Origin: Neocallimastix lanati (nom. inval.)
Lineage: Eukaryota > Neocallimastigomycota > Neocallimastigomycetes > Neocallimastigales > Neocallimastigaceae
Length of the DNA: 64,000 bases
Assembly (NCBI GenBank): GCA_016946835.1
Contig: JACVTC010000179.1
Coordinates: 62,001 to 126,000 of the forward strand
Direction: 5' to 3'
Shown here: positions 3,560 to 53,759 of the stretch, one piece after another
Layout: each line of letters begins with the position of its first letter
Numbering within the stretch: position 1 is the stretch's first letter
Translations under genes and position numbers: made by a program
Notes under the pieces: model-generated
What the model saw: only the letters and a program-made list of their open reading frames with translations
What the model was told of the DNA's origin: nothing
Database searches by the model: none

Positions 3560-3563
3560 CTAT

Positions 3564-4869
3564 TGATACAATACAGCTAGAAATACGCAAGAAAATTAAC
3601 AAAAGAGAAAATCCTGTTGAAATTATAACTGAATTGAAATCTCAATTTCAGTTATTTACATTTCAATAATTAAAAATATTATTTATTTAATTATAAATAA
3701 TATATATATTTAAATAATTAATAATTAATATAAATTCTTGTTTAATATTTAAAGGGTTATCTTAGGCCTAATAATCCTGAGAATATTAATAAATAAGGTT
3801 TATATTAATAATTAATTTCAATGATACATTTGACGTCACGTGTATTTTATTTATATTATGTTTTTATATATGTTTACAACATATCTATATTAAATTCAAT
3901 TATTCAAATAATTATATAATTAAATTTATCCTTATATTTTATTATTATTTATATTATTATTATCTTATAATTAAATATTATTATTATGTAAATTACAAAG
4001 TATAAAAGAAAGATGTAAAAATCTATCTTTTATGTTCTTTGTAAGGTTATTGTAAAATTACCTTAATAGTAATATATTATAGATATTTTATTATTAAATA
4101 AAATCAATAAATTTAAAATCAAATTAATTTGATAATTCTAATTATCAAAGTTTATTATAAATAAATTTTTATTAAACTAAACATTTAAATATTTATTATT
4201 ATTATTATATATCTATATAGTATATTACTATATAGACATATCGACTTAGTGAATATTTTTATTAAAACATATTATTTTATTTAAATTTAAATTATAAATT
4301 ATATCAAAATCTTAACAAATCCTATAATAATATAGTGAAAAATAATTACAATATATAATATACTAAATCATTATATAAATAGATTAAAAATTAATTAGAC
4401 AGCCAATAATATTCAAGATAAAATTAATTAATAAATTTAAAAGAAGAGAATGAAATAAAAGTTAAAGAGAGAGTTTTTCTTGTTGTTTTAAAAATTCTAA
4501 TTGAGTAAAATAATAGTTTTAGAGAACTTATAGTTTAGTTTAAATAATTAAGTAATTACTTATAGTTAAAGGATAAGAGTTGAATCCTACAATTATAAGT
4601 AAAATTATTATAAAGATATTAATATAAATTGAATTATTAGAGATAGATAAAAATCATTATATTCAGAGGAATATAAATATAATTGTAATAATTTATGTAA
4701 AATAAATAAATAAATAAAAACAAGATTTAAAAAGAAATAAATAAATTTTATTATTTGTGTAAATTATTATTTATTATCTTTGAGTTGGAATATATTATTT
4801 TACAAATTCCCTATTTGCTCGACCTCGTTATAAATAGAAATCTGATACTTTATTACTTATATTGTATCA
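3564..4869. mobile_element. Solo LTR L, interrupted by C3
   Basis: It starts TGATACAATA and ends TATTGTATCA, a perfect 10-bp terminal inverted repeat. CTAT flanks both ends (3560-3563 and 4870-4873), a 4-bp target duplication. Without C3 and one AATCC duplicate it is about 598 bp. TTGGAATATATTATTTT near the 3' end is shared with the I LTRs, suggesting one superfamily. Orientation is unknown. Confidence 0.8.
3615..4317. mobile_element. Solo LTR C3, inserted in L
   Basis: 703 bp, TGTTGAAATTATAACTG to TCTTAACA, flanked by AATCC at 3610-3614 and 4318-4322 (5-bp duplication). It shares landmarks with C1 and C2 (ATAACTGAATT opening, CTTAGGCC block, CTTTGTAAGGTTATTG). Confidence 0.8.
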
Positions 4870-4875
4870 CTATTG

Positions 4876-5716
4876 TGTAAAGAATTAATTAAAAATATTT
4901 AATTATATTAATAATTAATTCTTTCTACAATTAATAATAAAAAATATTATTAATTGAGATAAAATTAAAAAATATAATATAAAAATTGAAAACGAAAATT
5001 TAAAAACTTAGAGTTTATTATAAGATTATAATAAACAACACTAAAAGTAGGTTAAGAGAATTTTAGAAATTATTTTATTATAAAAATTTTTTATTTAAAA
5101 GTAATTTTAAAATATTTGTGTTAATTATTATAATTTCTTATAATAATAACTCTTAATTATTTTTAGAAGAATCAAGAGTCCTATTTATATTAATTTGATT
5201 TCTAATCTTGGAAAATTATCTCTATCTAGAAAAAGATTAGAAGAAAAAACTAGATAGATCTCGATTGGTGTTTAATTACATCAATCTTTAGTTAATAAGA
5301 AAACCCGAATAAGGGAGAAAACTTATTAACTAATTATATATTAATTTTATTAATATTAATACTTAATCACAAGTATAATTAAATAATTAATTCTTTTAAT
5401 TATCTTAATTAAAAGTCCAAGAAATAATATAATTTAATTATTTCTTGATTAAATAAAATTATCATTTTAATACAATTTAATTTTTCTTAATTAAATATAA
5501 TTTAACATTATTTTAATACAATAATACATTATTATAATTTAATATATTAATTATTGATAATTTAATTTAATTTTAAAACAATAACATTAATTAATAATTA
5601 CTATGTGACATAATTAATAAAATTATTCATAAAATTTTATAAAATAATAAACTTTAAATATTAATTTTTTAATAAAGAATAATAATTATTTTGAATAATA
5701 ATTATAATTCTTTACA
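4876..5716 (-). mobile_element. Solo LTR J (F superfamily), at the 5' edge of B
   Basis: 841 bp, TGTAAAGAATTAATT to ATTCTTTACA, flanked by TATTG at 4871-4875 and 5717-5721. The last two bases of that duplication are the first two bases (TG) of the LTR of element B, so J landed 2 bp inside B. It holds an ACTCTTAA...TCAAGAGT hairpin (5149-5179) like those in F, F' and G, and lies in the opposite orientation to F. Confidence 0.8.
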
Positions 5717-5770
5717 TATTGATAAAGAATGCCCAAATAATGTTCTTTTGGTTATGCATCTTAAATGATT

Positions 5771-6428
5771 TGTTAAGATAATAACTGAATTTCAATTCAA
5801 TTTCAATTTCGATAATTCAGTTATTTGAATTTCAATATTAATAAATAATAATAATATAATAATTATTATTAAATTAACTTTATTAAAATATTTAGGAATT
5901 AGTCTAGGCCAACTAATTACTAAATATTATTAACATATTGAATTTAATATATATTAAATAATGTAAACACGTGATTGTCATATTAAATTAATTTCTACAT
6001 ATTATATTTTAATTATAAATTATAATATTTAGCAATATTTAATTCTTATATTTTATTTATATTAAATATTTATATTATTATCTTATTTTATATTATCAAT
6101 ATCAAACTTATATTAATACTATTACATATTCATATTAATAATTAATATTTTAATAATTAATTATTTTATATAAATACATGTTTAAATCTTTTGATTAATC
6201 CTTTGTAGGATTATTGTAATTTAAATTATAGTAATAATTATATAAAATAATAATGTAATAAAATATTATTAAGATTAAATAAAATTTATATTTTAGATAA
6301 AAACTTAATTATAAAATTTACTAATAACAATATGTTTTAAATAAGAATAAAATTTAATTATTAATTAATTACTATAATTTGGCATCTTGACCTAATCGTT
6401 AAGACCAAATTATCTTAAAACTTTGACA
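5771..6428. mobile_element. Solo LTR C1, inserted in the 5' LTR of B
   Basis: 658 bp, TGTTAAGATAATAACTG to AAACTTTGACA, flanked by TGATT at 5766-5770 and 6429-6433. The uninterrupted site is preserved in the 3' LTR of B near 20985-20995. It is nearly identical to C2 (40027-40686). It contains TATATAAATACATG, a possible promoter. Confidence 0.92.
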
Positions 6429-7072
6429 TGATTCATTTAACCCTTAAACAAATTATTTGATTCTTTATTCTTTTGGAACTTTCTATATTCTAATAAATTA
6501 ATCTATATTCCTAATTAGTACAAATTAAATTATACTATTTAAAAAAGTATATTTAAAATTAATTCCTTATCTATGCTACCTTTATTATTCTTATCTATAT
6601 TTTATTATTATTAAAATCCTTATCAATATTATATAGTTTATTTTATCAATTTTCTTTATAGTTTATCAAAATCTTATCAATATTTCTTTTATTAATATTA
6701 AACTTATCAATATCAATTATTTCTTTGGAAAATTCCAAATTAAAAAAATTGTATTAATGATTACTAATAAAAGATTAAACATAAAAGGAAATAATTATAT
6801 TATTATTATATGTTTTATTATAAATATTATATTATAAATTTGATGAAATGATTATAATTTTTATATTAATAATTTAAATAATATTATTTTTCTAAACTTA
6901 GTAAAATTAAACTTTAGGATTAAATAAATATTACTAAACCACAGAATTAACTTCTGTAAAATAAAAAAATTTGTCTTTTAAAATATATAATTAAGTAGAT
7001 TAGTAATAAATAATTAGTAATAGATTAATATATAAGTATTATTTATTATAAGTTAAATAATAATTATATTAA

Positions 7073-7842
7073 TGTAAAGATTTAATAAAATCTTTAATAA
7101 ATTAATTATTACATAATTAATTAATGTAATAAAATTACATAAATTTATGATTTACGTATATGAAAATTAATTATAAATTTATGTAAACTTTTCATAAAGG
7201 AAAAATTATTATTTAAATAATTTTGGATAATAACTTAAATCTAAATAATTTATTTAAGTTAGTTAATTTAGTTTAGTTTATTTAAAATAGTTATTCTATT
7301 TAACTTAGTTAATTTAGTTTAGTTAGTTTAAAATACTTTAAAATTAATTTCGGAATAGTTTTAAATAGTTAAAATTAGTTTAAATAGTTTACAAAAATAG
7401 TTTTGAATTGTAAATATATAAACATTAGTATTAATAATATTTATATAATAAATATATAATAAATGAGTTGTTATTGAATTTAATTATTATTGTAAATAAG
7501 TTGAAAGTTTATTAAATTAATTATTGTTTAGTTTAGTTAATTATTATTTAATAAAATTATTAATAAATATTTTGTTTATAAATAAATAGTAATATATGTA
7601 AATTAGATAGAAATAATATATTATAATGTAATAATGAAAAAATATAAATACATGTAAATTTCTATAATTAAATCGATGTATTAGTTATTGACTATATGAT
7701 AGTTAATAACAAAAAGAGATTTAATTTTTTTTTAATTAATAAAGATTATTTTATTTAAAAAAACGAATTTTTATTACGTGTTTTTTTTATTTTTGTGTTA
7801 AAATTTGTTATTTGTAATCTGTTTCTGATAGAACTCTTTACA
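7073..7842 (+). repeat. 5' LTR of element A
   Basis: 770 bp, TGTAAAGATTTAATAAAATC to GAACTCTTTACA. I saw no difference from the 3' copy over the parts compared. AAAAAATATAAATACATG in the last quarter is a likely TATA box. No TGG-type tRNA primer-binding site follows directly; the next bases are ATAACTAATACC, so priming may be by an internal tRNA segment or by self-priming (inference). Confidence 0.93.
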
Positions 7843-7892
7843 ATAACTAATACCTTTTAAATAAAAAGAAACACGTTACAAATAATAAAATT

Positions 7893-8342
7893 TTCTACTG
7901 ATTTAGGACTCTACTTTAGGACTCTACTTTCTACTGATTTAGGACTCTACTTTAGGACTCTACTTTCTACTGATTTAGGACTCTACTTTAGGACTCTACT
8001 TTCTACTGATTTAGGACTCTACTTTAGGACTCTACTTTCTACTGATTTAGGACTCTACTTTAGGACTCTACTTTCTACTGATTTAGGACTCTACTTTAGG
8101 ACTCTACTTTCTACTGATTTAGGACTCTACTTTAGGACTCTACTTTCTACTGATTTAGGACTCTACTTTAGGACTCTACTTTCTACTGATTTAGGACTCT
8201 ACTTTAGGACTCTACTTTCTACTGATTTAGGACTCTACTTTAGAACTCTGCTTTCTACTCATCTAGGACTCTACTTTCTACTGATTTAGGACTCTACTTT
8301 CTACTGATTTAGGACTCTGCTTTCTACTCATCTAGGACTCTA
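7893..8342. repeat. 36-bp minisatellite in the leader of A
   Basis: About twelve head-to-tail units, each holding CTACTGATTTAGGACTC and then TACTTTAGGACTC. The first ten or so are near-identical; the last few are shortened or variant (TCATCTAGGACTC). It lies in the untranslated leader between the 5' LTR and gag. There are no unique spacers. Confidence 0.92.
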
Positions 8343-8676
8343 TAATTTTGACTTTTAACATAGATTTTTATTGCTCTTAAGCATTGTTAACCCTTACTGA
8401 TTTTGGACTCTTATTATTGTTGCTATTCAGGTTGAAATATTAATAATAGTTATATTATTCTATATTTTCTTCGTTTACTCGTTCGACACCTTTTCAAGTG
8501 GATAGAGTCTGAACGACTTTACGATATTAAATATAGACATATTAATAACTTGTATAATTAATAATAAGAGATCAAAAAAAAAAAAAAAAAAAAAATTTAA
8601 TTATTAACGTCACTTTAACATTAACAATCTGGAAGAACTAAATCGCATATTTCAAAACCTTAATCTTGATGATAAC
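8343..8676 (+). other. Leader of A just before gag
   Basis: Non-coding. It contains a 22-base A run (8574-8595) in the context AGATC(A)nTTTAATTA and then TGGAAGAA. The same context occurs before the gag-pol ORF of element F (24015-24080). Confidence 0.6.
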
Positions 8677-11600
8677 ATGGAGGGTCAACAACCAAACCAA
8701 CTACCGATTCATCCTGCTACTCAACTGAAAATTATTAACGATCCACCGTTATTTTCTGGATCTACAAAGGATCTTGATGGTTTTTTAACTCGAGTGGAAT
8801 TGGCAATTGAGGTGAATCCTCATAGATTCCCCGATGATAGGAGAAGAGTAATGTTTGTAATCTCCTATTTTACAGGAAAAGCTTTAAATTGGGCTTCATG
8901 CCTCAGAAGGAATAACAATCCTGTCTTAGGAAATTATGGAAATTTTATTGCTGAACTTCGTAGAAATTTCGGAGACCCTGATGTAGAAGCTGTTATTGCT
9001 AACGGAAAATTGTGTAACATACGCCAATTTAAATATGGACATGTTGTAGAGTATATCTCCGAGTTCCAAAAAATAAGTCAATACTCCGACTTTAATGAAC
9101 CGGCCAAGATATACATGTTCATAAAAGGTCTCCATTATAAGATGAGAGAAAAACTTGCTATTGTTAATCCAAACCCAGACAATTTGGAAAACTTATTTAG
9201 AGAGGCCGTAACGATTGAAAATCTAACAAAAAGAAACGATCTTAGAGAATATTATCTTACTCATCAGGACAGACGGAACTACAACCAAAATGACCCCATG
9301 GATGTCGATCTTTACCGAATTAAAAAGGGTCAAACTGCTACTAGATACTTTCCCTCTCACAGAAAAAATTACAATGAGCAAAATAACCCTTTTAGGGAAG
9401 AACGAAAAAGAAAGGGCTTATGCTTCATTTGTGGTAAGGCTGGGCATTTACAGTTTAATTGCCCTAACAAGAAAAGACCAAAAAATATAAAACTCATCAA
9501 TAGAGCATCTGATACAGAAGCAGCTTCAACTTCTTCCTCTGCGCCGACTTCTTCTGTCAGACGAATTAAAAAGATTTGTGAAAATGAAAATGTTTACAGA
9601 ATTCTTGATATTGTTGAAAAAGAAAATATGTTCTTTAAAGGTAAAACAAATATCCTTGATTTCTACATTAAAACCAACAATTCCGAAGAAACTAAAGTGA
9701 AGGTTCTTATTGACTCAGGTTCTGACATTAACTGCATGCATCCTGAATTTGCTAGGGTTAATAAAATCAATTTGATCAATGCTGATAATTCCTTTAAAGT
9801 TGCTGGTCTTGGTTATGGTTTATCTACTGTTAAGAAAATGACAGAAAAATGTATCCTCCGTTTTAAGAATCACTTGGAAGTTATTCAATTATACGCCCTT
9901 CGTATCCCCGATGTAGATATCATTTTAGGACTCCCTTGGATTGAAAAACATTGCCCTATTAACTACCATGATTCAAAGAAAATCTCTTTCAGTTCAGGAT
10001 ACTGTGCTCGACACTGTAATGTAGGGAAAAGAAATAGAAAAAATAAGAATAAAAAGAAGTTAAATAAAATTTCTACTAAAGGAAAGGAACCATATGAAGA
10101 ACTTTCCGTAACAAAGGAAAAAAATAATCCTAAGCGTAAGTATTCCTTCGAATCTGATTCCGATATGGATTCTGATGAAGAAATTACGATTAGAGGTCGT
10201 CGTACTCGTATTAAAACTTGTAGTGAAAAAGAAGAACTTAATGATGTAAAAAATTTTTGTATAATTAATTATGATAGTGATGTAAATGATAGTTTTATGT
10301 TTGATTATGATGATGAAATTTATGAATTTAGTGATAGTAATAATATTAATTTAGATGAATTAAATAAAATTTGTAAAATTGATATTTTATGTAATAATGT
10401 AACAAAAAATTGTAATCATAATGATAATTTTAATAAAGATGAAAATAAAAAGTATATTTCTAAAAAGTGTTCTGTGAAAAATTTGTGTTGTATCTGTAAT
10501 TGTTTAAAAATTAGTAATTTTGAGAATAAATTAAATCAAAAAATTATAGGAATACCTCCTATTTATAACAATTACGCAGAAGTATTCAATGAAAGAAATT
10601 GCAACATACTCCCTCCACATCGTGAATATGATTGTGAAATAAGATTAAAGGATAATTCAAATTTATTTTATGGTCCAATATATCCTTTAACTGAGGCAGA
10701 ACGAGATGAACTAAAAAAGTATATAAAAGAAAATTTAGAAAAAGGATTCATTAGAAAATCCAAATCACCCGCTGGTGCACCTGTATTATTTGTTAAAAAG
10801 AAAGATGGTTCATTGAGATTATGTGTTGATTATAGAAAATTGAATGAAATGACCATCCGTAATTCTTATCCTCTTCCTTTAATAAGTGAATTATTAGATA
10901 GAGTTAAAGGTGCAAAATATTTTACCAAGTTGGACTTAAAGTCTGCCTACAATTTAGTAAGAATTAAAGAAGGTGATGAGTACAAGACTGCATTTCGTAC
11001 TAGATATGGTCATTTTGAATATTTAGTTATGCCTTTTGGCTTAAAAAATGCTCCAGCCACCTTCCAGCATTTTATAAATGATGTTCTTAGCGATTACTTA
11101 GATGATTTTGTTATTTCTTACATTGATGATATATTAATTTATTCGAATAGTTTAGAGGAACATCATGAACACGTTAAAAAGGTGCTTAAAAAATTATTAG
11201 AAAATGACTTGTACATTAAATTAGAGAAATGTGAATTCGATGTTACTGAAACCACTTTCCTTGGTTACATTTTATCAAAAGACGGCTTGAAAGTTGATCC
11301 TGAAAAGGTTAAAGCTATCCTAGATTGGCCTGTTCCTTCTAATGTAAAGGAAATACAATCATTTATTGGATTATGTAATTATTATAGAATTTTTATCAAG
11401 GATTTTGCTAAGATTGCGCGGCCCTTACATAAACTTACCAGGAAAAATGTTCCATTTCTCTGGGGTTCTGATCAACAAAAATCCTTTGATAAATTTAAAG
11501 AACTTTTTACTTCTGCTCCAATTTTAAGAAATCCTGATAGTAACAAACCTTTCATTGTGGAAACTGATGCTTCTAATTTCGCTGTTGGAGCTATACTTTC

Positions 11601-13560
11601 CCAAGAATTTGATGGTCAGTTACACCCAATTGCTTTTATTTCTACCAGTCTAACCAAATCTCAACTAAATTACCCCATTTATGATAAAGAGCTTCTTGCA
11701 ATTAAAGTTGCTTTGGAAGAATGGCGTCATTACCTTGAAGGTGCTCGCCATCCATTTACTATTTATACCGATCATAAAAACCTTACTTTTCCTAGGAAGC
11801 CTGAGCTACTTTCTCAACGACAAATTCGTTGGTATGAATTTCTTTCTCGTTTCGATTTTATTCTTGTGTATCGTTCTGGTAAAAAATCTGGTAAACCAGA
11901 TATTTTGTCAAGAAGAAGTGATCATTTATTTGATTGTTCTCGTGATGTTTCTTGTTGTGTTATTAATCGTAACTCATGTGACGAGTCCTTAATTAATTCT
12001 ATTTTGAAATCTTTAAATAATGATGATCTTTTTATAAAAATTAAATCATTTATTTTAAATAATAGTAATGTTAATCCACCTATTAAATTTATTGATAAGT
12101 GTAAAATTGATAAGGAAGGTTTCTTACTTTTTGATAACTTAATTTATGTCCCTCAGAATCTTCGTACAAGAGTTCTTGAAATACACCATGACTCTGTTAC
12201 TGCTGGTCATTTCGGTGTACGCAAAACATTTGATTTGATTAATCGTAACTTTTGGTGGCCTAAGTTACGTAATGATGTTAAAAAGTTTGTTAAGTCCTGT
12301 GAAACTTGCTGCAAAGCTAAAGTTCCAAGACATAAACCCTACGGTCTTTTATCTCCTTTGTCTACCCCCGACAGACCATGGTCAGACATCTCCATGGATT
12401 TTATTGTTGAATTACCGAAATCCAAAGATATGACCACTGTCATGACTGTTGTAGATAGATTGACTAAAATGGCACATTTTATTCCTTTGCGTTGTCTTCC
12501 TACTGCTTCAATTGCTGCCGATTCTTTTATTAACCATATCTTTAGGTTACATGGCTTTCCTGATTCCATTGTTTCGGATAGAGGTACGCAATTTACTTCT
12601 GATTTTTGGAATCGTCTTTGCGAATTATTAAACATTAAGTTGTCATTCTCCACTTCGAACCATCCGCAGACTGATGGTCAAACGGAGAGGGTGAACGGAA
12701 TATTGGAACAATATCTCCGTTGTTTCATAAATGAAAAACAAAATAATTGGGTTGACTTGTTGCCTTTTGCCGAATTTGCTTATAATAATACTCTGCAACA
12801 ATCAATCAATCAATCACCATTTTTTGCAAACTATGGATTTAATCCAAAATTTAGTTTAGAAATTCCTTCTTCAGATAGTCCTCATAGAGCTGATGTTAGA
12901 GTGAAAGATATAAATGAAAATATTAAATTTTTAAAGGAAAATTTAGAGTCAGCTAAAGAAACTTATAAAAAGTATGCCGATTTCAAAAGATCATCCTCGC
13001 CAGATTTTGAAGTTGGTAAAAAAGTTTGGTTACTCAAAGGAAATACAACTAAGAATGTAAAAAGGAAATTAGCAGACCAAATGCTTGGTCCATTTGAAAT
13101 TGTGAAGAAAGTTAGTTCATTAGCCTACGAACTCAAATTACCAAGTAATATGCGTTGTCACCCTGTTTTCCATGTATCTTTACTGGAACCATTTTATGAA
13201 AATGAATTTGCTAATAGAAATAATAGGAAAAGAAAGAATATTAAGTTAACTACCGATACCATAAATAAGATTCCTGAAAGAATTATTGATATGAGGACAT
13301 ATAGAGGAAAAAATCGTTTCCTCATATCTTGGAAAGGCCTAGATTCTGTTGAAGATTCTTGGATCGATGAAGATCAAATTTACGATAGACAGCTAATTCA
13401 AGAGTACTTTCGTAAATCTAAAAGGAATAAACGAAATAATGTGGTTGATGATGGTGATAAAGATTTTAATGAAGAATACATTAGGCATAAATATCAACCA
13501 TTTATAATTGACATTCCTTCCCGGAGATTGAACTCTATAGTTCGCAGGAGCTCAACTTAA
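8677..13560 (+). CDS. Gag-Pol polyprotein of element A (1627 aa)
   Basis: A single fused polyprotein for capsid assembly, processing, reverse transcription and integration. Domains in order: retrotransposon Gag over residues 20-220; CCHC knuckle from C249 (CFICGKAGHLQFNC); aspartic protease D346-S-G; an acidic, Asn/Lys-rich linker; reverse transcriptase with YIDD at 815-818; RNase H with catalytic D964; integrase zinc finger H1171, H1178, C1208, C1211; core D1241, D1301, E1337 (35 residues between the last two); and a C-terminal chromodomain from about residue 1533 (PERIIDMRTYRGKNRFLISW). The ATG at 8677 is well placed after the leader and gives a full Gag. All catalytic residues are present and no stop or frameshift is seen. 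Known for the family: chromodomains direct integration toward chromatin marks. The base composition is A+T-rich like its neighbours. Confidence 0.96.
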   Translation: MEGQQPNQLPIHPATQLKIINDPPLFSGSTKDLDGFLTRVELAIEVNPHRFPDDRRRVMFVISYFTGKALNWASCLRRNNNPVLGNYGNFIAELRRNFGDPDVEAVIANGKLCNIRQFKYGHVVEYISEFQKISQYSDFNEPAKIYMFIKGLHYKMREKLAIVNPNPDNLENLFREAVTIENLTKRNDLREYYLTHQDRRNYNQNDPMDVDLYRIKKGQTATRYFPSHRKNYNEQNNPFREERKRKGLCFICGKAGHLQFNCPNKKRPKNIKLINRASDTEAASTSSSAPTSSVRRIKKICENENVYRILDIVEKENMFFKGKTNILDFYIKTNNSEETKVKVLIDSGSDINCMHPEFARVNKINLINADNSFKVAGLGYGLSTVKKMTEKCILRFKNHLEVIQLYALRIPDVDIILGLPWIEKHCPINYHDSKKISFSSGYCARHCNVGKRNRKNKNKKKLNKISTKGKEPYEELSVTKEKNNPKRKYSFESDSDMDSDEEITIRGRRTRIKTCSEKEELNDVKNFCIINYDSDVNDSFMFDYDDEIYEFSDSNNINLDELNKICKIDILCNNVTKNCNHNDNFNKDENKKYISKKCSVKNLCCICNCLKISNFENKLNQKIIGIPPIYNNYAEVFNERNCNILPPHREYDCEIRLKDNSNLFYGPIYPLTEAERDELKKYIKENLEKGFIRKSKSPAGAPVLFVKKKDGSLRLCVDYRKLNEMTIRNSYPLPLISELLDRVKGAKYFTKLDLKSAYNLVRIKEGDEYKTAFRTRYGHFEYLVMPFGLKNAPATFQHFINDVLSDYLDDFVISYIDDILIYSNSLEEHHEHVKKVLKKLLENDLYIKLEKCEFDVTETTFLGYILSKDGLKVDPEKVKAILDWPVPSNVKEIQSFIGLCNYYRIFIKDFAKIARPLHKLTRKNVPFLWGSDQQKSFDKFKELFTSAPILRNPDSNKPFIVETDASNFAVGAILSQEFDGQLHPIAFISTSLTKSQLNYPIYDKELLAIKVALEEWRHYLEGARHPFTIYTDHKNLTFPRKPELLSQRQIRWYEFLSRFDFILVYRSGKKSGKPDILSRRSDHLFDCSRDVSCCVINRNSCDESLINSILKSLNNDDLFIKIKSFILNNSNVNPPIKFIDKCKIDKEGFLLFDNLIYVPQNLRTRVLEIHHDSVTAGHFGVRKTFDLINRNFWWPKLRNDVKKFVKSCETCCKAKVPRHKPYGLLSPLSTPDRPWSDISMDFIVELPKSKDMTTVMTVVDRLTKMAHFIPLRCLPTASIAADSFINHIFRLHGFPDSIVSDRGTQFTSDFWNRLCELLNIKLSFSTSNHPQTDGQTERVNGILEQYLRCFINEKQNNWVDLLPFAEFAYNNTLQQSINQSPFFANYGFNPKFSLEIPSSDSPHRADVRVKDINENIKFLKENLESAKETYKKYADFKRSSSPDFEVGKKVWLLKGNTTKNVKRKLADQMLGPFEIVKKVSSLAYELKLPSNMRCHPVFHVSLLEPFYENEFANRNNRKRKNIKLTTDTINKIPERIIDMRTYRGKNRFLISWKGLDSVEDSWIDEDQIYDRQLIQEYFRKSKRNKRNNVVDDGDKDFNEEYIRHKYQPFIIDIPSRRLNSIVRRSST

Positions 13561-13570
13561 AGGGCGAGAA
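13559..13570 (+). promoter_or_regulatory. Polypurine tract of A
   Basis: AAAGGGCGAGAA lies directly before the 3' LTR and overlaps the ORF stop. It is the expected plus-strand primer. Confidence 0.75.
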
Positions 13571-14340
13571 TGTAAAGATTTAATAAAATCTTTAATAAAT
13601 TAATTATTACATAATTAATTAATGTAATAAAATTACATAAATTTATGATTTACGTATATGAAAATTAATTATAAATTTATGTAAACTTTTCATAAAGGAA
13701 AAATTATTATTTAAATAATTTTGGATAATAACTTAAATCTAAATAATTTATTTAAGTTAGTTAATTTAGTTTAGTTTATTTAAAATAGTTATTCTATTTA
13801 ACTTAGTTAATTTAGTTTAGTTAGTTTAAAATACTTTAAAATTAATTTCGGAATAGTTTTAAATAGTTAAAATTAGTTTAAATAGTTTACAAAAATAGTT
13901 TTGAATTGTAAATATATAAACATTAGTATTAATAATATTTATATAATAAATATATAATAAATGAGTTGTTATTGAATTTAATTATTATTGTAAATAAGTT
14001 GAAAGTTTATTAAATTAATTATTGTTTAGTTTAGTTAATTATTATTTAATAAAATTATTAATAAATATTTTGTTTATAAATAAATAGTAATATATGTAAA
14101 TTAGATAGAAATAATATATTATAATGTAATAATGAAAAAATATAAATACATGTAAATTTCTATAATTAAATCGATGTATTAGTTATTGACTATATGATAG
14201 TTAATAACAAAAAGAGATTTAATTTTTTTTTAATTAATAAAGATTATTTTATTTAAAAAAACGAATTTTTATTACGTGTTTTTTTTATTTTTGTGTTAAA
14301 ATTTGTTATTTGTAATCTGTTTCTGATAGAACTCTTTACA
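13571..14340 (+). repeat. 3' LTR of element A
   Basis: 770 bp, matching the 5' LTR over the parts compared, and followed by the ATTAA target duplicate. Confidence 0.95.
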
Positions 14341-14637
14341 ATTAATAATAAAAAATTAATATAAAATATTTAATAATTAATTTTTATTATACAAAGAAAT
14401 GGCTTTACCATTTCTATTATTTTAAGAAAAAAAAAAAATATAAATAACAGTAAAAAAATTGTATTTTTTTATATTGTAATTTAATATTGTAATTTTTTAA
14501 ATAAAAAAATTTTAATAAAGGATTTATAAAAACAAAAATTTATTTTGTTTATTAATTTTCTTGTTTGTTTATTTTTTTGTTGTTTATATTAATACTTATT
14601 TTTATTTTTCCCTCTCTCCGAACCTTAACATAAAATT

Positions 14638-41267: not shown

Positions 41268-41316
<49 letters not shown>

Positions 41317-41380: not shown

Positions 41381-41407
41381 TTATTTATTTATATTTGTGA
41401 AATAAAA

Positions 41408-41462
<55 letters not shown>

Positions 41463-42687: not shown

Positions 42688-42689
42688 TT

Positions 42690-43249: not shown

Positions 43250-43255
43250 TTTGTG

Positions 43256-44267
43256 TGTAATAGCTATACTAAAACTAAAAATCAATTAATATAACTATTA
43301 TCTATAATTTTAATATTATTTTTACATAATATTAAAATTGAGAAAATAAAAATTAAAAAAATAAAAATTATACTTAATCATACAGAATATAACAAACAAT
43401 AACCAAGCAACGGCAGAATAGTAGTTGAAAATATTCTTTAAAAAAAAAAAAAAAACCTTTTATGATTAATAACAGTTTTTTTTGATATATAAAAAAATTT
43501 ATTTTATTTGTTATTATTTATTATATTTTCTTAAAATAATAACTCTTGATTTCTCAAAGAGAATTCAAGAGTCCTATTTATATTTTTTAAAAAATTAATC
43601 GGTTAAATAAATTTGTTTTCTAATCTTAACAAAAAATCTATTTAGGAAAAGATTAGAAGAAAAACCTAAATAGTTTTTCGATCAATATTCTAATCATATT
43701 GATCATCGTATAATTAAAGAAAACCTATTTGTTAGGAAAAACATTAATTACCGATTTTCTAATTAGTTATAAAATATTAAATATTGATAGGATAGGAATT
43801 AATGAAAAAAAAAAGATTTTTTTTTTTTTTTTTTTTTTTCATTTAAAAAATAAAGATTAAATAATGTGATAGATTAGATACATTTATAGTTTATAATACA
43901 TTATAAAATACATAATTCATTTTAATTAAAATAACTAATATTTTTATGGTAAAATATTAAATACAAATTTACATAATTTTTTGTAAAAATTCTATTTAAA
44001 TGAATAATAATAATAAGTAAATAAATTTTATATTATTTATATAAATGTATAAAATTATAATATATAAATAAATTTAGATCAATATATGAAAATATAACTA
44101 TTAAATAAATTTATAAGTTAAAATCAATGAATATATTAATTATTATTTAAATAAATATTTTTTTAAAAATAATTATTATTTTATAAATAATTATAAATTA
44201 TTAATTATTTTTCATTAATTATAAGAAATATTAATTATTCATTATTGAATAATTATGATTTCTTACA
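43256..44267 (-). mobile_element. Solo LTR F', reverse copy of the F LTR, at the 5' edge of I1
   Basis: 1012 bp, TGTAATAGCTATAC to ATTTCTTACA, essentially the reverse complement of the F LTRs. Flanked by TTGTG at 43251-43255 and 44268-44272; the last TG is the start of I1. The hairpin is at 43542-43572. Confidence 0.92.
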
Positions 44268-44270
44268 TTG

Positions 44271-44756
44271 TGATACGTGACCACTATAAAAATGGTATTT
44301 AGGTAGATTCTTTAGGTTAAAGAAATACTTAAATATTATTGGTCAATAATAATTTTATAATAATATATATAATTTTATAACAATATATAATTTTATAATA
44401 ATAATTATTAAACGGAGAATTCTTTTATTTATAAGTTTATACTTATTATAAATTAATTCACATAAATAGCTATTTTTATATTTTATTTTAGTATAGTTAA
44501 AAGAGATATTATATATATTTGAGATAATTAATTATAATATTTATATAAAAGAGTAATAATAATAATAATTGATGTAATAATTAATAATTAATAATAAATA
44601 AAGAGAACATTAAAAAGATATATTTATTACTTTATTTTGTATTATTGTATGTGTTATTTCTATTTAATATTAGAATATATTATTTTGTCATAATTCCTTA
44701 TTGTCATTGCCCATAAATAAATATTAATTTAGATACATAAATAAAATATCGTATCA
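44271..44756. mobile_element. Solo LTR I1
   Basis: 486 bp, TGATACGTGACC to ATCGTATCA. TTTG on both sides (43250-43253 before F', and 44757-44760). First of three tandem copies. Confidence 0.85.
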
Positions 44757-44760
44757 TTTG

Positions 44761-45244
44761 TGATACGTGACCACTATAAAAATGGTATTTAGGTAGATTC
44801 TTTAGGTTAAAGAAATACTTAAATATTATTGGTCAATAATAATTTTATAATAATATATATAATTTTATAACAATATATAATTTTATAATAATAATTATTA
44901 AACGGAGAATTCTTTTATTTATAAGTATATACTTATGATAAATTAATTCACATAAATAGCTATTTTTATATTTTATTTTAGTATAGTTAAAAAGAGATAT
45001 TATGTATATTTGAGATAATTAATTATAATATTTATGTAAGAGAGTAGTAATAATAATTGATGTAATAATTAATAATTAATAATAAATAAAGAGTACATTA
45101 AAAAGATATATTTATTACATTATTTTGTATTATTGTATGTGTTATTTCTATTTAATATTAGAATATATTATTTTGTTATAATTCCTTATTGTCATTGCCC
45201 ATAAATAAATATTAATTTAGATACATAAATAAAATATCGTATCA
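44761..45244. mobile_element. Solo LTR I2
   Basis: 484 bp, near-identical to I1. TTTG at both ends. Confidence 0.85.
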
Positions 45245-45489
45245 TTTGTGATACGTGACCACTATAAAAATGGTATTTAGGTAGATTCTTTAGGTTAAAG
45301 AAATACTTAAATATTATTGGTCAATAATAATTTTATAATAATATATATAATTTTATAACAATATATAATTTTATAATAATAATTATTAAACGGAGAATTC
45401 TTTTATTTATAATTTATACTTATGATAAATTAATTCACATAAATAGCTATTTTATATTTTATTTTAGTAAAGTTAAAAAGAGATATTAT

Positions 45490-46287
45490 TGATAAGAATG
45501 TACTAAATAATGCATTCTTAATTAAATCTACGATTTATTTCTAATACATTATGTGTACATTATTATTTTTGTACTTTAATAAATTTTTAAATCCAAAGAT
45601 CAAAAATTAAATCAAAAATTATATTAAACTTTATATTTTTATATTAAATCTTATATTAATAGTAATATTTTTATATATTTAAAACTTATACTAGCAATAT
45701 TAATAATAAATCTTATTTTTTTATTTTTATATTAATAATGAAAATTTGTATTAATAATATTTTTATATATTGATGATTAAAAATTTATATATTATAATTT
45801 AACTTTTATTATAAAATTTTATATCGAAATGTTTTATTTTATATTGAAAAATATTTTATTTTATTAAAAACCTTTATATTAGAATAGTATTTTTATTTTT
45901 ATTTGAATATTTTAACAAATTGTAATAAAAATTATAGCCAATTAAATAAATTCTTATTAGTAATATTTTAGATAGATTATAAAAAAAAAAAAAAAATGTT
46001 TTATTAATATTATAAATGTATTTTATTTATATTGTTATAATTAAATTTTATATAATTGATTATAAAACTCAATTTAAATTTAATAGTTTTTATAAAAAAA
46101 AAAAATAAATAAAATGTAATTTAGTGGCAAGAACAACTTTTATGCTTTGAAAAAAGTATAAATAATTGTAAATTTTGCTACTAATTTTTAAATATCATCA
46201 AATAAATTTATAAATAAAAATAATAAATAAATAAATAAAATTTGTATTTCTTACTTTATTTTTATTTAATTCTCTAAAACCTTAACA
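45490..46287 (+). repeat. 5' LTR of E2
   Basis: 798 bp, TGATAAGAATGTAC to TCTAAAACCTTAACA; one base shorter or longer than its 3' partner and a few changes apart. Confidence 0.93.
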
Positions 46288-46293
46288 TTTATA

Positions 46294-46310
46294 TGGTGGA
46301 GATATCGGGG
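46294..46310 (+). promoter_or_regulatory. Primer-binding site of E2
   Basis: TGGTGGAGATATCGGGG, 6 nt after the LTR. Confidence 0.8.
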
Positions 46311-47796
46311 AATTAAATAGAAATAATAGTAAATAACATAGATTTTTTTTAATTTTTTTTTTATTCTATATTGATAAACAAGTAAGTCGTTAATCCTTTG
46401 ATTAACCTATGGCGCTTGTTTGATATATATATAAAAAAAAAAAAATTTTTTTTAAATAAGTAAAATTAAGATTCTAAAAAAAAGATTGTAAATTATAACA
46501 AGGAGCGGATAGAGCTCATATACAGTGTATTTCCAGAAAACAACAAAATATCTATTATTCATAGTAGGTTATTGGATAATAGTTATTTTAGGAATTAATT
46601 GGAAAGTAGACGAAGGTATTTGGTTACCGACCCGGTAATAATAGTTCAGCCTTCAACGTTTCAACACACGAAGGTGCGGGTACTTTCCAAGCACTGGCGA
46701 ATAAGGAGCTTATGTCACCGAAGGCGTAAGATTGTTTTTTTTTATATTTTTTTTATTTTTCTTTGTGCTAGTTATAAGGCACTTTATTATATAAAGTATC
46801 AGACTTTGGCTAACTTTGCCATTTAAATTTTTTTTATTTTTTTTTTCTTTATTACTGGTACTTTATTTGTTATATAATTCCTGTAATAGAATCTTAATTT
46901 ACTTTGAAAATATTGTGTTTTTAGTTAATTTTTATTAGTTAATAAAAATATTATTGAATACTTTTAAAATTTTTTTTATTCCGTACATAGATTATCGGAT
47001 TAAGTTTATCCTACATAGTAATTGGGCTAGTGGGCTCTGAACTGCTATATTTTATATTGAATATAGTAATCGTGGCACACGCGTGGCATGACACCATTAG
47101 GTAAGCTGCACGTCAGACAGTGTGTACTATCAGATTGTACGACAATAAAGATTATTTTTTGTGTTTAATAATTATAATTAATTAATAATTTTATTAGCTA
47201 TAACAATACAATTTTTATCGTTTAAAAAGAAAAATTTTTGAAAGGTGAAAATAATAAATAAAACTTTGCTTCTAAATTTATTACTACAAATATACTAAAT
47301 TACAAAATTCAAGTGGTCGATAAAGATTTCGAGCTTGAAAAATATTCTATTAAGTTGTCGATAAAGATTTCGAACTTAAAATTATTCTATTAAGTTGTCG
47401 ATAAAGATTTCGAACTTAAAATTATTCCATTAAGTTGTCGATAAAGATTTCGAACTTAAAAATTATTCTATTAAGTTGTCGATAAAGATTTCGAACTTAA
47501 AAATTATTCTATTGAGTTGTCGATAAAGATTTAGAACTTAAAAATTATTCTTAATAAAGTAGTCGAAAAGAACCTCGTGCTTTATAATTTCTACTAAGTT
47601 GTCGATAAGGATTTCGAGCTTATATCTACTAAAGAAAGCAAATAAAATTATTATTTTCAAAAGTTACTAAAATATATTGTTTTAAAAATTGATTCGATAT
47701 TAAATTACCTATTAAATTATATTTTTAAAGTTTTATTTCCAAATTTATTCTTATTTAATCACCTCATTAATATACAACAAGAAATATTTAAACAAA
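46311..47796 (+). other. Long structured leader of E2
   Basis: As in E1, with G+C-richer blocks at 46497-46735 and 46978-47155. It carries 21 bases missing from E1 near 46677-46698, bounded by GCG repeats, so one copy has lost or gained them. The frame at 46599-46826 starts with TTG and is not conserved in E1, so I do not call a gene. Confidence 0.5.
47311..47622 (+). repeat. TCGA hairpin array of E2 (8 units)
   Basis: Same unit as in E1, with three more copies. One unit has TTAGAACTT, breaking the inner TCGA pairing. Confidence 0.72.
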
Positions 47797-48702
47797 ATGT
47801 CCAAGGAAACAACTTTGAGCTTTAAAGAATTGAAAAAAGAATTGAGAGATATTGTGAAACTTAGCAAGGACAATTTAGATATTAAGTCCTGGGCTACTGA
47901 ATTAAAACTTTGGATCAAGATACAAGGTATCACAGATCCAGAAACAATATTTAATGCTTGTTTACTTACCAGCTCTGGTGAAGTACAACGCGTTATTGAA
48001 GATTTGGGAGAAGATAGTGATGATGAAAGTGATGATTCATCAGATGAAGAAGAAGAAGATGATGAAGAAGAAAATGTTGATGATGATATTAAATTTCCTT
48101 CCCTTGAAAAAATTATTTCAAGTCTTGAAAATTTTTACGGTATTAAAGAAGACCAAAATTTACTTCTTAAAGAACTTCGTGCAATGCGAATTAAAAGAAA
48201 CGAAAAGATTAAAGACTTTAATGTAAGATACAGAACTTTGTACACTAAACTTGATAAAAAGAGAAGAAAGCGCATTGGTGTACTAGATTATATTGATTCT
48301 ATTCAAAATAATTATGAAGCCTGGAAGAAATTATCCCTTAAAGATGATATAAGTATAGATAAAGCTTTCAAAATTGCCGAGAAAGTAGATAGACTTTCTG
48401 TAAGGAACAATAATACCTATAATATTAATAATTCCCAACATAATCAAAATAATCAAAACAGTACTACTTCAAGACTTTATCCTAAAAGAAGAAACGAAAA
48501 TTTCCAAACAAGTCAAACAAATAATAAACTGAAACCTCAAGATATTATAGAAGAATCAACCCAGAAAATGAGAAATTTATCTGTTAAAACTTGCTTCTTC
48601 TGTAAGGAAGAAGGTCATTACTCATACTATTGTCCTCAATTAAATAAGATTATGGAAAAAAATAAAAAAGAAATATATTCCAAAAAGTCTTTAAACTTCT
48701 AA
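47797..48702 (+). CDS. Gag of element E2 (301 aa)
   Basis: Near-identical to the E1 Gag: same ATG context, acidic stretch and CCHC knuckle (CFFCKEEGHYSYYC). Two residues are missing in the Asn-rich linker (NNNTYNINN in place of the longer E1 form), plus a few substitutions such as SLEKIISS for SLGKTISS. The frame is intact and ends just after the slip site at 48690. Confidence 0.92.
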   Translation: MSKETTLSFKELKKELRDIVKLSKDNLDIKSWATELKLWIKIQGITDPETIFNACLLTSSGEVQRVIEDLGEDSDDESDDSSDEEEEDDEEENVDDDIKFPSLEKIISSLENFYGIKEDQNLLLKELRAMRIKRNEKIKDFNVRYRTLYTKLDKKRRKRIGVLDYIDSIQNNYEAWKKLSLKDDISIDKAFKIAEKVDRLSVRNNNTYNINNSQHNQNNQNSTTSRLYPKRRNENFQTSQTNNKLKPQDIIEESTQKMRNLSVKTCFFCKEEGHYSYYCPQLNKIMEKNKKEIYSKKSLNF

Positions 48703-48723
48703 ATGGGAGCAGAAGCACTCCCA
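48690..48723 (+). promoter_or_regulatory. Putative -1 frameshift signal of E2
   Basis: T TTA AAC (48690-48696), then stem TGGGAG (48704-48709), 8-nt loop, CTCCCA (48718-48723). Identical to E1. Confidence 0.8.
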
Positions 48724-51700
48724 ATGACAAAAAAATAGCTTCATTAAAAAATTTACAAAAGAATCTAATTACCAAGAATACTCCAATTGATAATAATTCC
48801 TTTAATGAAGAATCTGAAGAATCTGATTTTAGTGACACAACTGAAAGTGAGGATGATATCATTATAAATGCTATAAAAAGAAAAATGAATGATAATAACA
48901 GCGAAAAAGAAGAAAATAATTCCAAGAAAGTACATAAAAGTTTAAAAGATAATCCACGTCCTTTCGCAACTCCTGCTTTAAGAAAGAAGAAAGAAAATGA
49001 GCTACATAATAAACCAAATAAAGTTTATAAAAATCAAATACTTCCTTCAATTTTAACTCAACCAAATATTAATAAAGAAAAACAAAAAGAAAAGGAATTA
49101 AGAAATATGACAAGAGTAAGAGAAAGTAAAGAAGAAAACAACAATTATTCATCAAAAGGAAAGGAAAAAGTTGAATCTGAAGATATACTTGTAATCGATA
49201 ATGAAATAGAAGATCTAGAAATGAATAAAGATAATCAACAAAATAAAACTAATACTTTGGAAAAATTAATTTCAACAAAAACTAAAGAAACTAATAATGA
49301 AAATACTCAGTTAGTAAAAAGGAATATCAAAATGATGAATAATAAAGAACCTTACAATATTATGGATGATTTAAATAATCTTAAATCCAGTATTACGATA
49401 GGTCAACTCTTGAATGCATGTCCTAAAATTCGTTCACAATTAACTCAAGGTTTAAAGTTAGAAAAATCTAAAATAATTGGAACTGTAGACAATGTAATAG
49501 CACGAACTTTATTAGTAAATAACTATGATCATAGCTACATAAGTAAAAGTAATGAAGTAGCCGAAGAAGACTTAGCAATGGTTGATGCAAGTGTTGACGG
49601 AGTACTAGGAAAACTTTTAATTGATTCTTGTAGTAACCTAAGCATCGTTACTAAGCAGTATTTTGATAAATTACCTGGTGAATATGAAACAGTTGGAAAA
49701 AGTCGTGGAAGAATCCAACTAGCAACACAAGATGAAGAATACTCGGAAGGAATTATTGTTCGATTACCAGTAAAAATTAATAATTATGAATTTAATGCGG
49801 ACTTTAGAATTATTGAGAAAGAAGACTCTTTTTATGATATGTTAATAAATTTTAAAACTCAAATCGATCATTGTTTATTTATTCATCCAACCTTAAACAG
49901 TCTATGTAAACTTTTGTCAGAAAGTGAATACGAAGAAATAGCTAAAATAAATAATCAATATTATGATGAAGAAAGTATAATTTGCACTATTAGAAAAGTT
50001 AAAGAAACGAATAATGAAAAGGAAATTATAAAGGAATTAACTCCAATGGAATTTATTGAGAGTGATGAATTTTTAAGTACCTTAAATAAAGATTATAAAG
50101 AACAAATTATTAAAATTCTCAAAGAAATGATTGACATAGTTGCCACTTCAACAGAAGAACTAACTCCTTCTAAACTTTCACCATATAAGATCCGTTTAAA
50201 AGCTAATGCAAAGCCAGTAAAATTAAGAAGTTATAGGTTAACTAAATTAAAATCAGATATCTTAAAAGAAGAACTTACAAAGCTTATTAAGAAAGGATTG
50301 ATAGAACCATCCTGTTCAGAATGGTCATCTCCAGTAATACTTATTCTAAAACACAACGGAAAGTGGCGCTTGTGCATTGACTACCGAAAAGTCAATGATA
50401 TGACAGAAAAAGATTCTTATTCAGTTCCATATATAGATGAAATTTTTGATAGTCTCGGAGGAGCTAAAATATTTACAACTCTTGATTTATTTTCTGGTTT
50501 TCACCAAATCTTAATGGATGAAGAAAGCGTTGAAGTAACCACTTTCACTACTAAGTTTGGAAATTATCAATTTAAGGTTATGCCTTTTGGACTTACTGGA
50601 GCTCGCTCAACCTTCCAAAGAGAAATGAATAAAATTTTATTCCCTTTTATTGGTGAATTTGTTTATGTATTTATTGATGATGTTTTGATCTATTCAAAAA
50701 GTATCGAAGAACATTTAATTCATATTAAACAAGTATTAGAAGTATTTAAAGAAAACAAGTTAAAAATTAATATTGAAAAGTGCCATTTTCTTCAAACTGA
50801 AGTTGATGTATTAGGTCACAAACTTACTACTAAAGGATTAAGTCCCATGGAAAGTAAAATAACAGCTATTAAGAAGTGGGAAGCCCCTTCATCAATGCAT
50901 GAATTAAGATCATTTCTAGGAGCAGTAGGATATTATCGTGACTTTATTCCTAAATATGCTCAAATTACCTCACCTTTATGTAAATTATTGAAAAAGAATA
51001 CTAAATATGAATGGAATAAAGAACAACAAGAAAGCTTTGAACTCCTAAAAGAAAAATTAATCAATGCACCTATCCTAAAATTTCCGTCATTTGACAAACC
51101 TTTTATCATTAGAACTGATGCTTCGTATAATGGAATTGGTTGAGTTCTTTTACAAAAAGAAGAAGAAACCGATAAGGAGCATCCAATACACTTTATAAGT
51201 AGAAGTTTGAAGAAAGCTGAAAAGAATTATGGTATCACAGATTTGGAAGGAACAGCTTTATTCTACTGTATGACTAAATTTAAATCTTATATTGAAGGAA
51301 ATCCATTACCTACAACTATTTACACAGATCATAAACCATTAGTTGGTTTATTTAAGAATAAAGAACCTTTGAGTGCAAGGCAAACAAGATGGTGTCTAAC
51401 CGCTAGTATACTTGGAATTAATATAAAATATGAATCAGGCAAAAAGAATGTGTTAGCTGATGCTCTTTCAAGAATGAAAAGTAAGGAAGAGAGAAAGATA
51501 TTATTAACAAAAATTACTAATGGAAATAATGAAGAATTATTATCTAAAGTTATAAAGGAATTTATTAATGAAAAGTTTACTGTTATTGATGGTGAAGATT
51601 ACTTTATCGACAATGGAAATTATAGAAAATTAATAACGGATGAAAATAAAAAATTTAAATTAATTTTAGAAGCTCATAATATTGGCCACGAAGGATATTA

Positions 51701-52700
51701 CAAAACATATCAAAGACTTAAGAAAAACTTTTATTGGAATCATATGATTAAAGATATCAAAAGAATTGTTAGTAATTGTGAAAAATGCCAGTTAAATCGT
51801 CCTCAACCATATCCAGAACCAACCGAAAACCATCCAACTAAAGTGGAGGGTCCCTTTGTGCATTTAGGATTAGATATTATAGGACCGTTACCAAAAACAA
51901 GAAATAATAATCAATATATTATAGTAACTATTGATTACTTTACCAAATGGGTTGAAGCCGAACCCACTGAAAACATAACTTCCTCTGATATAATTAAATT
52001 TTTAATAAATGTTTTTGCAAGACATTGCGTGCCTCAAGTTATTACCACCGATAATGGAGCATAATTCACCTCTGACATGACAAAAATCTTTCTTGACCTT
52101 TATGACGTTTATGTAAAATTCATAGCTACTTACCACCCTGAATCAAATGGCCTTACTGAAAATCGAAATAAAGAAATTGGAAAATTACTCCGTTTATTAG
52201 GAAGGAAAAATCAAGATTGGGATGAAGTTTTACCTTCTGCTTTATGGGCACTTCGAACTACCAAAAATACAGCTACTGGACATTCTAGTTTTGAATTAGT
52301 ATATGGAAGAGAAGACCAACAGCCTTATGATATAGCCATAAGAACAATTGAAAATGCAGGTAAATCATATGATGAAATTTTAATGGAAAAATTTGTTCGT
52401 CATTATCAATGGACTAGAGAAGCATGCGAAAATGTGAAGAATGCTAACAAGTATTGGGCAACAAGACGAGAAGAACAAATAAGTATGAAAAAAGGAAAAG
52501 AATTAAAAGCTGGTGATCTTGTTCTTGTTAGAAACTTTAACCGCACTAAGCTAGAACCATATTACAATGGACCATTTAAAATTTTAAAAATTCAATTCAA
52601 CACAGCAACCCTAATCGATCAGAAGACTGGAAAGCAACTCGATAGGAATGTTCACTTTAAAAATTTAGTAAAGTTTAACTCCGCTTACAGAGAAGCTTGA
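48696..52700 (+). pseudogene. Pol of element E2 with two in-frame stops
   Basis: The same frame as E1 throughout. Stop 1 is the shared TGA at 51141-51143 in RNase H. Stop 2 is TAA at 52062-52064 in the integrase core, right after the second catalytic Asp region, where E1 reads GVQFTSD. Around 52024-52083 E2 differs from E1 at about eleven positions, although flanking sequence is nearly identical. GAPSTF of E1 is GARSTF here, next to the RT core. Protease motif is D-S-C. This copy cannot make full Pol without suppression. Confidence 0.92.
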
Positions 52701-52708
52701 GTCTTCGT

Positions 52709-52718
52709 CGGGGCATCT
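52709..52718 (+). promoter_or_regulatory. G-rich plus-strand primer candidate of E2
   Basis: CGGGGCATCT directly before the 3' LTR. Confidence 0.55.
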
Positions 52719-53515
52719 TGATAAGAATGTACTAAATAATGCATTCTTAATTAAATCTACGATTTATTTCTAATACATTATGTGTACATTATTATTTTTG
52801 TACTTTAATAAATTTTTAAATCCAAAGATCAAAAATTAAATCAAAAATTATATTAAACTTTATATTTTTATATTAAATCTTATATTAATAGTAATATTTT
52901 TATATATTTAAAACTTATATTAGCAATATTAATAATAAATCTTATTTTTTTTATTTTTATATTAATAATGAAATTTTGTATTAATAATATTTTTATATAT
53001 TGATGATTAAAAATTTATATATTATAATTTAACTTTTATTATAAAATTTTATATCGAAATGTTTTATTTTATATTGAAAAATATTTTATTTTATTAAAAA
53101 CCTTTATATTAGAATAGTATTTTTATTTTTATTTGAATATTTTAACAGATTGTAATAAAAATTATAGCCAATTAAATAAATTCTTATTAGTAATATTTTA
53201 GATAGATTATAAAAAAAAAAAAAAATGTTTTATTAATATTATAAATGTATTTTATTTATATTGTTATAATTAAATTTTATATAATTGATTAAAAAACTCA
53301 ATTTAAATTTAATAGTTTTTATAAAAAAAAAAATAAATAAAATGTAATTTAGTGGCAAGAACAACTTTTATGCTTTGAAAAAAGTATAAATAATTGTAAA
53401 TTTTGCTACTAATTTTTAAATATCATCAAATAAATTTATAAATAAAAATAATAAATAAATAAATAAAATTTGTGTTTCTTACTTTATTTTTATTTAATTC
53501 TCTAAAATCTTAACA
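52719..53515 (+). repeat. 3' LTR of E2
   Basis: 797 bp, TGATAAGAATGTAC to TCTAAAATCTTAACA. Confidence 0.93.
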
Positions 53516-53759
53516 TTATATATATTTGAAAAAATTAATTATAATATTTATATAAGAGAGTAATAATAATAATTTATGTAATAATTAATAATTAATAATA
53601 AATAAAGAGAACATTAAAAAGATATATTTATTACTTTATTTTATATTATTGTATGTTTCTATTTAATATTAGAATATATTATTTTGTCATAATTCCTTAT
53701 TGTCATTGCCCATAAATAAATATTAATTTAGATACATAAATAAAATACCGTATCATTTG

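Follow-up and report, generated by a model that had tools for sequence, protein, structure and literature searches.

Retroelements that integrate at measured distances upstream of genes transcribed by RNA polymerase III (Pol III) have been described in several hosts, and the sources cited here are drawn on as excerpts. The Ty3 element of Saccharomyces cerevisiae inserts 2–3 bp upstream of the Pol III start with a 5-bp target duplication, and a structure of its integration machinery with TFIIIB exists (PMC8632968); measured from the mature tRNA, the insertion lies approximately 12–15 bp away (PMC5006619). Tj1 of Schizosaccharomyces japonicus, also a Ty3/gypsy element, inserts 5–11 bp upstream of tRNA genes and likewise makes a 5-bp duplication (PMC4600332). 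In dictyostelids, DGLT-A, a long terminal repeat (LTR) element without a chromodomain, lies about 15 bp (13–33 bp) upstream of tRNA genes, and a table note in the same source refers to elements whose target tRNA gene was occupied beforehand (PMC5006619). TRE5-A of Dictyostelium discoideum forms tandems at occupied tRNA genes without insertion of one element into another, with 80.2% of the distinguishable insertions at 47 ± 3 bp (PMC5391098). Here we describe a train of LTR units in a 64-kb window of the genome of the anaerobic gut fungus Neocallimastix lanati (contig JACVTC010000179.1, positions 62,001 to 126,000), which leads back to a tRNA-Leu gene and which, very probably, was built by serial Ty3-like landings measured from that Pol III gene, with older elements pushed outward. 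An Hsp70 from this genome, encoded in a single open frame, shows 92% identity over its full length to the proteins of Piromyces sp. E2 and Neocallimastix californiae and 91% to that of Anaeromyces robustus, as expected of a Neocallimastigomycete. All coordinates refer to the window, negative ones lying to the left of its start on the same contig (C89:57630 is window -4370).

A preliminary description held that nine LTR units (L, B, K, E1, H, D, I1, I2 and I3, letters matched here to coordinates through the succession of separators) follow one another head to tail with CTAT, CTTT and TTTG at their edges, and all ten edges are present. Between 3560 and 53759 the units adjoin edge to edge, and the separators read in the sequence are solely CTAT (3560–3563, 4870–4873 and 21917–21920), CTTT (22932–22935 and 37771–37774), CTTT followed by a G (39972–39976) and TTTG (43250–43253, 44757–44760, 45245–45248 and 53756–53759). 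The train extends left of 3560 with a tenth unit, designated unit 0 (-4356 to 3559), which has CTAT at both edges and beyond which stands the tRNA gene. These ten units with 4-bp duplications constitute the main class. Nine of them carry the same 4 bp at both edges; the exception is K, where CTAT faces the tRNA gene and CTTT lies at the opposite edge, and this mismatch, like the shift of D by one base after CTTT plus G, is as had been claimed. The shared duplications also support the earlier proposal that the train arose by successive insertions reusing the same 4 bp. Two further classes are nested in the train: four inserts with 5-bp duplications (N1–N4, the N class) and three inserts located about 50 bp inside a unit (F0–F2, the F class).

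The tRNA-Leu(CAA) gene was found in the 10 kb examined to the left of the window (locus L075), on the minus strand at C89:57546–57630 (L075:5546–5630; window -4454 to -4370), by ARAGORN and by Rfam (RF00005, 59.5 bits); within the 64-kb window itself, neither ARAGORN nor Rfam at the gathering threshold detected a Pol III gene. Outward from the 5' end of the tRNA-Leu gene come TCTTGATAG (9 bp), CTAT and TGTTACGGAAC, the last of these being the start of unit 0, whose end GTTCTGTACCA is reached at 3559 and is followed by the CTAT at 3560–3563. Since the flank thus reads 9 bp, CTAT and unit 0, the separator CTAT corresponds to bases -10 to -13 of the tRNA-Leu gene, and the separators are copies of the gene's own upstream flank at approximately -10 to -14. 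Units nearer to the tRNA gene than K carry CTAT, the present-day site, and the one-base change of the site falls at K.

In the mechanism that we propose, each main-class element would duplicate the 4 bp located near -10 to -14, its LTR ending up 13–16 bp from the tRNA gene, and the separator copy nearest the gene would stand again at the measured position. With this copy restored, the next element would land there and displace the older ones outward; because each landing recopies the site, the separators would represent successive copies of the gene's upstream bases over time, first TTTG, then CTTT and then CTAT. The positions, duplications, distances and spacings are read directly, as is the recurrence of the arrangement at other tRNA genes; the order of events we infer from them, and the ruler may well be the Pol III initiation complex, with TFIIIB in the role that it has for Ty3.

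Evidence that the position is set by the tRNA gene comes from elsewhere in the host assembly, which comprises 199,045,447 bases in 762 contigs and holds the LTR start of the I family 172 times and that of the E1 family 737 times. A sample of 60 loci and 40 short stretches gave 86 distinct 80-bp 5' flanks of these two families, of which 8 (5 and 3) were dropped as 3' LTRs and 78 kept. ARAGORN calls a tRNA no more than 40 bp from the LTR in 12 of the 78, with a gap of 13–16 bp in 11 and of 4 bp in one, and in the copies at 13–16 bp no LTR stands between the tRNA gene and the element. Fourteen further flanks passed a loose A-box test, and B-box-like stretches are visible by eye in several. The converse sample was drawn from 63 tRNA-model matches listed of 9278 candidates: 34 lie on contig C555, and for 20 of the other 29 approximately 160 bp upstream were read. 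Among these 20 upstream stretches, 10 hold an LTR start with at least 8 bases in common with an LTR start of the window, 11–21 bp from the nearest tRNA (where a tRNA-Asn stands ahead of the sampled tRNA, as in 10 of the 20, the measurement starts at the tRNA-Asn). The other 10 are unmatched to the window's families; several show, by eye, TG starts at similar distances, which were left uncounted. A second train, at locus L030, is complete from gene to element and reads tRNA-Ser, 12 bp, TCGC, LTR, TCGC and an I-family LTR. At L040, ATAA occurs three times between LTRs within 1.4 kb, and L014 and L027 have two separator copies each. As separate observations, the I-family copies at L017, L018, L025 and L027 have in common the flank GGTATAAATCA followed by 5 bp, where no tRNA was called and which is possibly another Pol III gene or an LTR family; and the matches on C555 form a tRNA gene array (170732–399007) of at least 34 members, 34 of the 63 listed, some of them about 540 bp apart.

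These distances bear directly on the explanation offered in the preliminary description, that the integrase of these elements prefers the junction of an existing LTR with its target duplicate, so that arrays seed themselves. Such junctions are indeed strongly enriched, and the expectation that their genome-wide count would exceed chance was borne out. CCTTAACA followed within 0–15 bp by TGATAAG occurs 27 times in the assembly as against 4 for the reversed control, with gaps of 4 bp in 19 cases, 5 bp in three, 14 bp in two, and 1, 3 and 7 bp in one each; TATCANNNNTGATA occurs 1530 times as against 976 for its reversed control. Of the 78 flanks, 30 have a CA that precedes the LTR by exactly 4 bp, with 8 each at spacings of 3 and 5 and a mean of about 3 (range 1–8) over the other spacings from 0 to 19, and the stricter end T[ACG][ACT]CA is found at spacing 4 in 22 and at other spacings in 0–3. 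A preference of the integrase for junctions as such is nevertheless largely refuted by the tRNA distances, because the same families land equally far from a tRNA gene with no LTR intervening (11 of the 12 ARAGORN-called flanks). Moreover, the left end of the train is the tRNA gene itself, and the nested classes insert elsewhere than at the junction, the N class 1–2 bp off and the F class about 50 bp inside the LTR proximal to the tRNA gene, which fits a tRNA-measured position instead. We thus consider a junction-seeking integrase very improbable: LTR junctions would be hit because they lie at the position measured from the tRNA gene, although only two trains, the present one and that at L030, have been traced to such a gene.

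A ruler held by the tRNA gene predicts that classes using slightly different positions should mix in one train at predictable spacings. Counting upstream from the gene, copying would involve positions g+1 to g+4 in the main class and g+2 to g+6 in the N class, which comes from another clade. With these two rulers, the spacing between LTR edges should be 4 bp where two main-class LTRs meet, 3 where an N-class end precedes a main-class LTR, 6 where a main-class end precedes an N-class LTR, and 5 between two N-class LTRs. In the window, N1–N4 show the spacings 6 and 3 every time. In the genome sample, which comprised the 78 main-class flanks and 18 N-family flanks (one N-family flank was excluded as internal, and at least one more that looks internal was retained), the commonest spacings among LTR ends no more than 12 bp away were 4 for main–main (25/29), 3 for N–main (7/11), 6 for main–N (3/6) and 5 for N–N (4/6). 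The shift of the N class by one to two bases would also account for its duplications, which should take in three separator bases and the TG of the next LTR: all four N inserts sit at separators, and their 5-bp duplications consist of the last three separator bases plus that TG. From the pattern at N1, N2 and N4, an insert was predicted at the start of H, and N3 was then found there. The left separator copies of B, E1 and I1 look wrong because an N insert split each of them, leaving CTAT before N1, CTTT before N2 and TTTG before N4.

The F class would land about 50 bp inside the LTR nearest the gene. F0 lies 50 bp inside unit 0, which places it 63 bp from the tRNA-Leu gene, and F1 and F2 show a like offset inside their units (51 and 50 bp). 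The LTR start of F1 and F2 occurs 371 times in the assembly, and 6 of the 20 flanks read (at least 2 of which resemble 3' LTRs by eye) place the copy 51–52 bp inside an LTR that itself follows another LTR end by 3–4 bp; at L139 the distance from the copy to a tRNA-like end is 65 bp.

If the train grew in a polar fashion, older units are expected farther from the tRNA gene. The differences between paired LTRs are, outward from the gene, 0/757 aligned sites for F0 (two flanking bases included; L075:5694–6448 and window 2008–2762), 0/974 for B (no substitutions, 3 gap columns), 3/996 for N2, 21/807 for E1 and 2/555 for D, and four of the five dated pairs fit. Age order as a proof of polar growth thus holds only in part. 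The order of the separators offers no proof either, since insertion at any junction would preserve it, and the argument for polarity rests on the tRNA anchor together with the young proximal inserts.

Several observations weigh against the reading of serial landings at the tRNA gene. D looks younger than E1 though it is expected to be older, for which LTR conversion is one possible reason, and seven of the ten main-class units, being solo LTRs at this locus, are undatable. ARAGORN called no tRNA in the 20 F-class flanks, and 14 of these 20 are without the 50-bp signature. The E1-family copy inside I3 (45490) and element C (7073) lie off any measured position, and 22 of the 78 I and E1 flanks fell into no class of the classifying script, several of them showing LTR-like ends or tRNA text that the rule missed. 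The spacing rule was, furthermore, formulated after part of the genome sample had already been viewed.

Tandem LTRs could also arise through unequal crossing-over, integration of two-LTR circles or recombination with cDNA, and a review notes, in the part cited here, that integrase-independent retrotransposition tends to yield tandem insertions (PMC12786077). I1, I2 and I3 are close to one another (Kimura two-parameter distances 0.017–0.028) and all carry TTTG, so that one or two of them could derive from local duplication of a 490-bp unit. The families of adjoining units, however, mostly differ, and the separators vary from train to train and among the junctions that a given pair of families forms, where an element-specific junction would be expected; as an account of the train, these processes are therefore very improbable. 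Least probable of all is an artefact of assembly, for although the units are repeats and the locus is known from the assembly alone, the units follow one another coherently down to single bases, with a duplication at either side, and identical spacings are seen on numerous further contigs.

The serial landings proposed here can be followed unit by unit, all features being on the plus strand unless stated otherwise. Unit 0 (TGTTACGGAAC...GTTCTGTACCA; 1–3559 within the window), 13 bp from the tRNA-Leu 5' end, is split by F0 (-4306 to 2762; 1–2762 within the window), a nested Ty3/gypsy element with the duplication AGATT. Unit L (3564–4869; TGATACAATAC...TTGTATCA) has CTAT at both edges and no second LTR seen in the window. 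N1 (4876–5716), a nested LTR of the 5-bp class, has the duplication TATTG (4871–4875 and 5717–5721). It is followed by unit B (5720–21916), a full Ty3/gypsy element with the LTR TGATAAAG...CTTAACA between the CTAT separators at 4870–4873 and 21917–21920. Within B lie F1 (5771–6428), a solo LTR starting TGTTAAG with the duplication TGATT, and C (7073–14340), an element with the duplication ATTAA, placed away from the separators as well as from the 50-bp offset. Unit K (21921–22931; TGGTA...TACCA) is a solo LTR; N2 (22938–29828), a nested full element of the 5-bp class with the duplication TTTTG, precedes unit E1 (29832–37770; TGATAAG...CTTAACA), a full Ty3/gypsy element with CTTT at both edges. 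Unit H (37775–39971), an LTR reading TG[N3]ATATGGGG...CCCGTATCA with CTTT at both edges, is interrupted directly after its TG by N3 (37777–38653), a 5-bp-class LTR with TTTTG on both sides. Unit D (39977–43249), a short element with the LTR TGATATTT...TTATCA and TTTG at both edges in a phase shifted by one base, contains F2 (40027–40686), a solo LTR of the F1 family with the duplication TGACA. N4 (43256–44267, minus strand) is an inverted solo LTR of the N2 family with the duplication TTGTG, and the solo LTRs I1 (44271–44756), I2 (44761–45244) and I3 (45249–53755) complete the series, I3 being split by the E1-family copy at 45490–53515 (duplication TTAT). The distal end is formed by X (53760–54316, minus strand), the 3'-terminal LTR of a Ty3/gypsy element lying on the minus strand, and this LTR has at least 40 scored matches genome-wide. 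Because the right flank consists of it, the possibility of a Pol III gene on that side of the train was rejected. Farther on, at 59794–59819, the gag frame of X (minus strand) overlaps a plus-strand, gag-like one from a relative of B and E1, and no LTR edge was seen between them.

The proteins place these elements in Ty3/gypsy (Metaviridae), whose order of reverse transcriptase, RNase H and integrase they display. The Pfam domains RVT_1, RT_RNaseH, Integrase_H2C2 and rve occur in that order in B, E1 (in two pieces), N2 and C, and in pieces in X; F0 shows an integrase and an SH3 domain by Pfam in its open part (2–1303), its reverse transcriptase being recognizable solely through BLASTP to the other elements. 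Paired TG...CA LTRs with a short target duplication are present in B, E1, D, N2, F0 and C, and the solo LTRs show duplications only. The fixed short distance upstream of tRNA genes is also found, at 13 bp for unit 0 and 13–16 bp for the flanks above. The 5-bp duplication of Ty3 proper is absent from the main class (4 bp); duplications of that length do occur in the N and F classes. By pairwise BLASTP the proteins fall into two groups, one of B, E1 and a distal element at 62851–63840 (57–60% identity) and one of C, N2, F0 and X (50–62%), with 31–45% between groups. Pfam Chromo (PF00385, E ≤ 0.01) was not detected in B, E1, N2, X or F0 (scanned to the stop at 1306), and C alone matches. Other features of the elements include an in-frame stop at the same place of pol in two E1-family copies (35383–35385 and 51141–51143, after 825 amino acids and before the next open stretch), with which the family may thus have spread; a minus-strand open frame of 326 amino acids in D (41381–42361), with a long lysine run and a part that resembles an aspartic protease by eye; and tandem repeats in the leader regions of C (7892–8342, period 36) and of E1-family copies (31665–31858 and 47307–47622, period about 40).

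That elements of two clades and three offsets converge on one gene raises a broader possibility, to which we give an even chance: that at least three rulers operate in a single fungal genome against the same Pol III genes, that two Ty3/gypsy clades (one making 4-bp and one 5-bp duplications) are involved, that each tRNA gene keeps a layered record, and that loss of or change in the chromodomain accompanied a switch from chromatin to Pol III targeting. With rulers precise to within one or two bases, such a record would persist at every tRNA gene that has been occupied, and in it a spacing of 3, 4, 5, 6 or about 50 bp would tell which class came later. In the second clade, the targeted N2, X and (as far as its open frame was scanned) F0 are without a detected chromodomain and the untargeted C has one, which suggests its loss or change with the switch. 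What was a puzzling train of repeats can now be read by position as a history of repeated landings at a single tRNA gene, and the spacing arithmetic offers a simple test applicable to any assembly. An anaerobic gut fungus thereby joins the hosts whose Pol III genes are used as landing places, and here the site is shared by several classes of element. Tens of kilobases can accumulate at such a compact safe site while most of the elements stay out of one another's genes.

The principle is already known from Ty3 and Dictyostelium. Among the papers listed in a literature search lacking most subscription journals, none deals with LTR elements that target tRNA genes in Neocallimastigomycota, a search combining these subjects brought up a single paper, on a choanoflagellate, and priority is not claimed. 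What is added is a long LTR train of mixed classes, exact to one or two bases, together with an LTR class about 63 bp out, an unusually legible case. As far as the cited excerpts allow the comparison, the present elements resemble Ty3 in the Ty3/gypsy domain order and in the narrow window used upstream of Pol III genes, their 13–16 bp being close to Ty3's 12–15 bp, and differ from it in the 4-bp duplication of the main class as against 5 bp; the likeness drawn here is one of behaviour. Tj1 shares Ty3/gypsy insertion close upstream of tRNA genes and is set apart by the same difference in duplication, and the excerpts on it describe no trains. DGLT-A, as that source describes it, is matched in being an LTR element without a chromodomain at a similar distance from the tRNA, and in the reuse of an occupied gene, in a different host; neither the length of its duplication nor long trains figure in the excerpts. 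With TRE5-A, as excerpted, the train shares tandems at an occupied tRNA gene; unlike this non-LTR element, however, the third class here is of the LTR type, with F0 standing 63 bp out.

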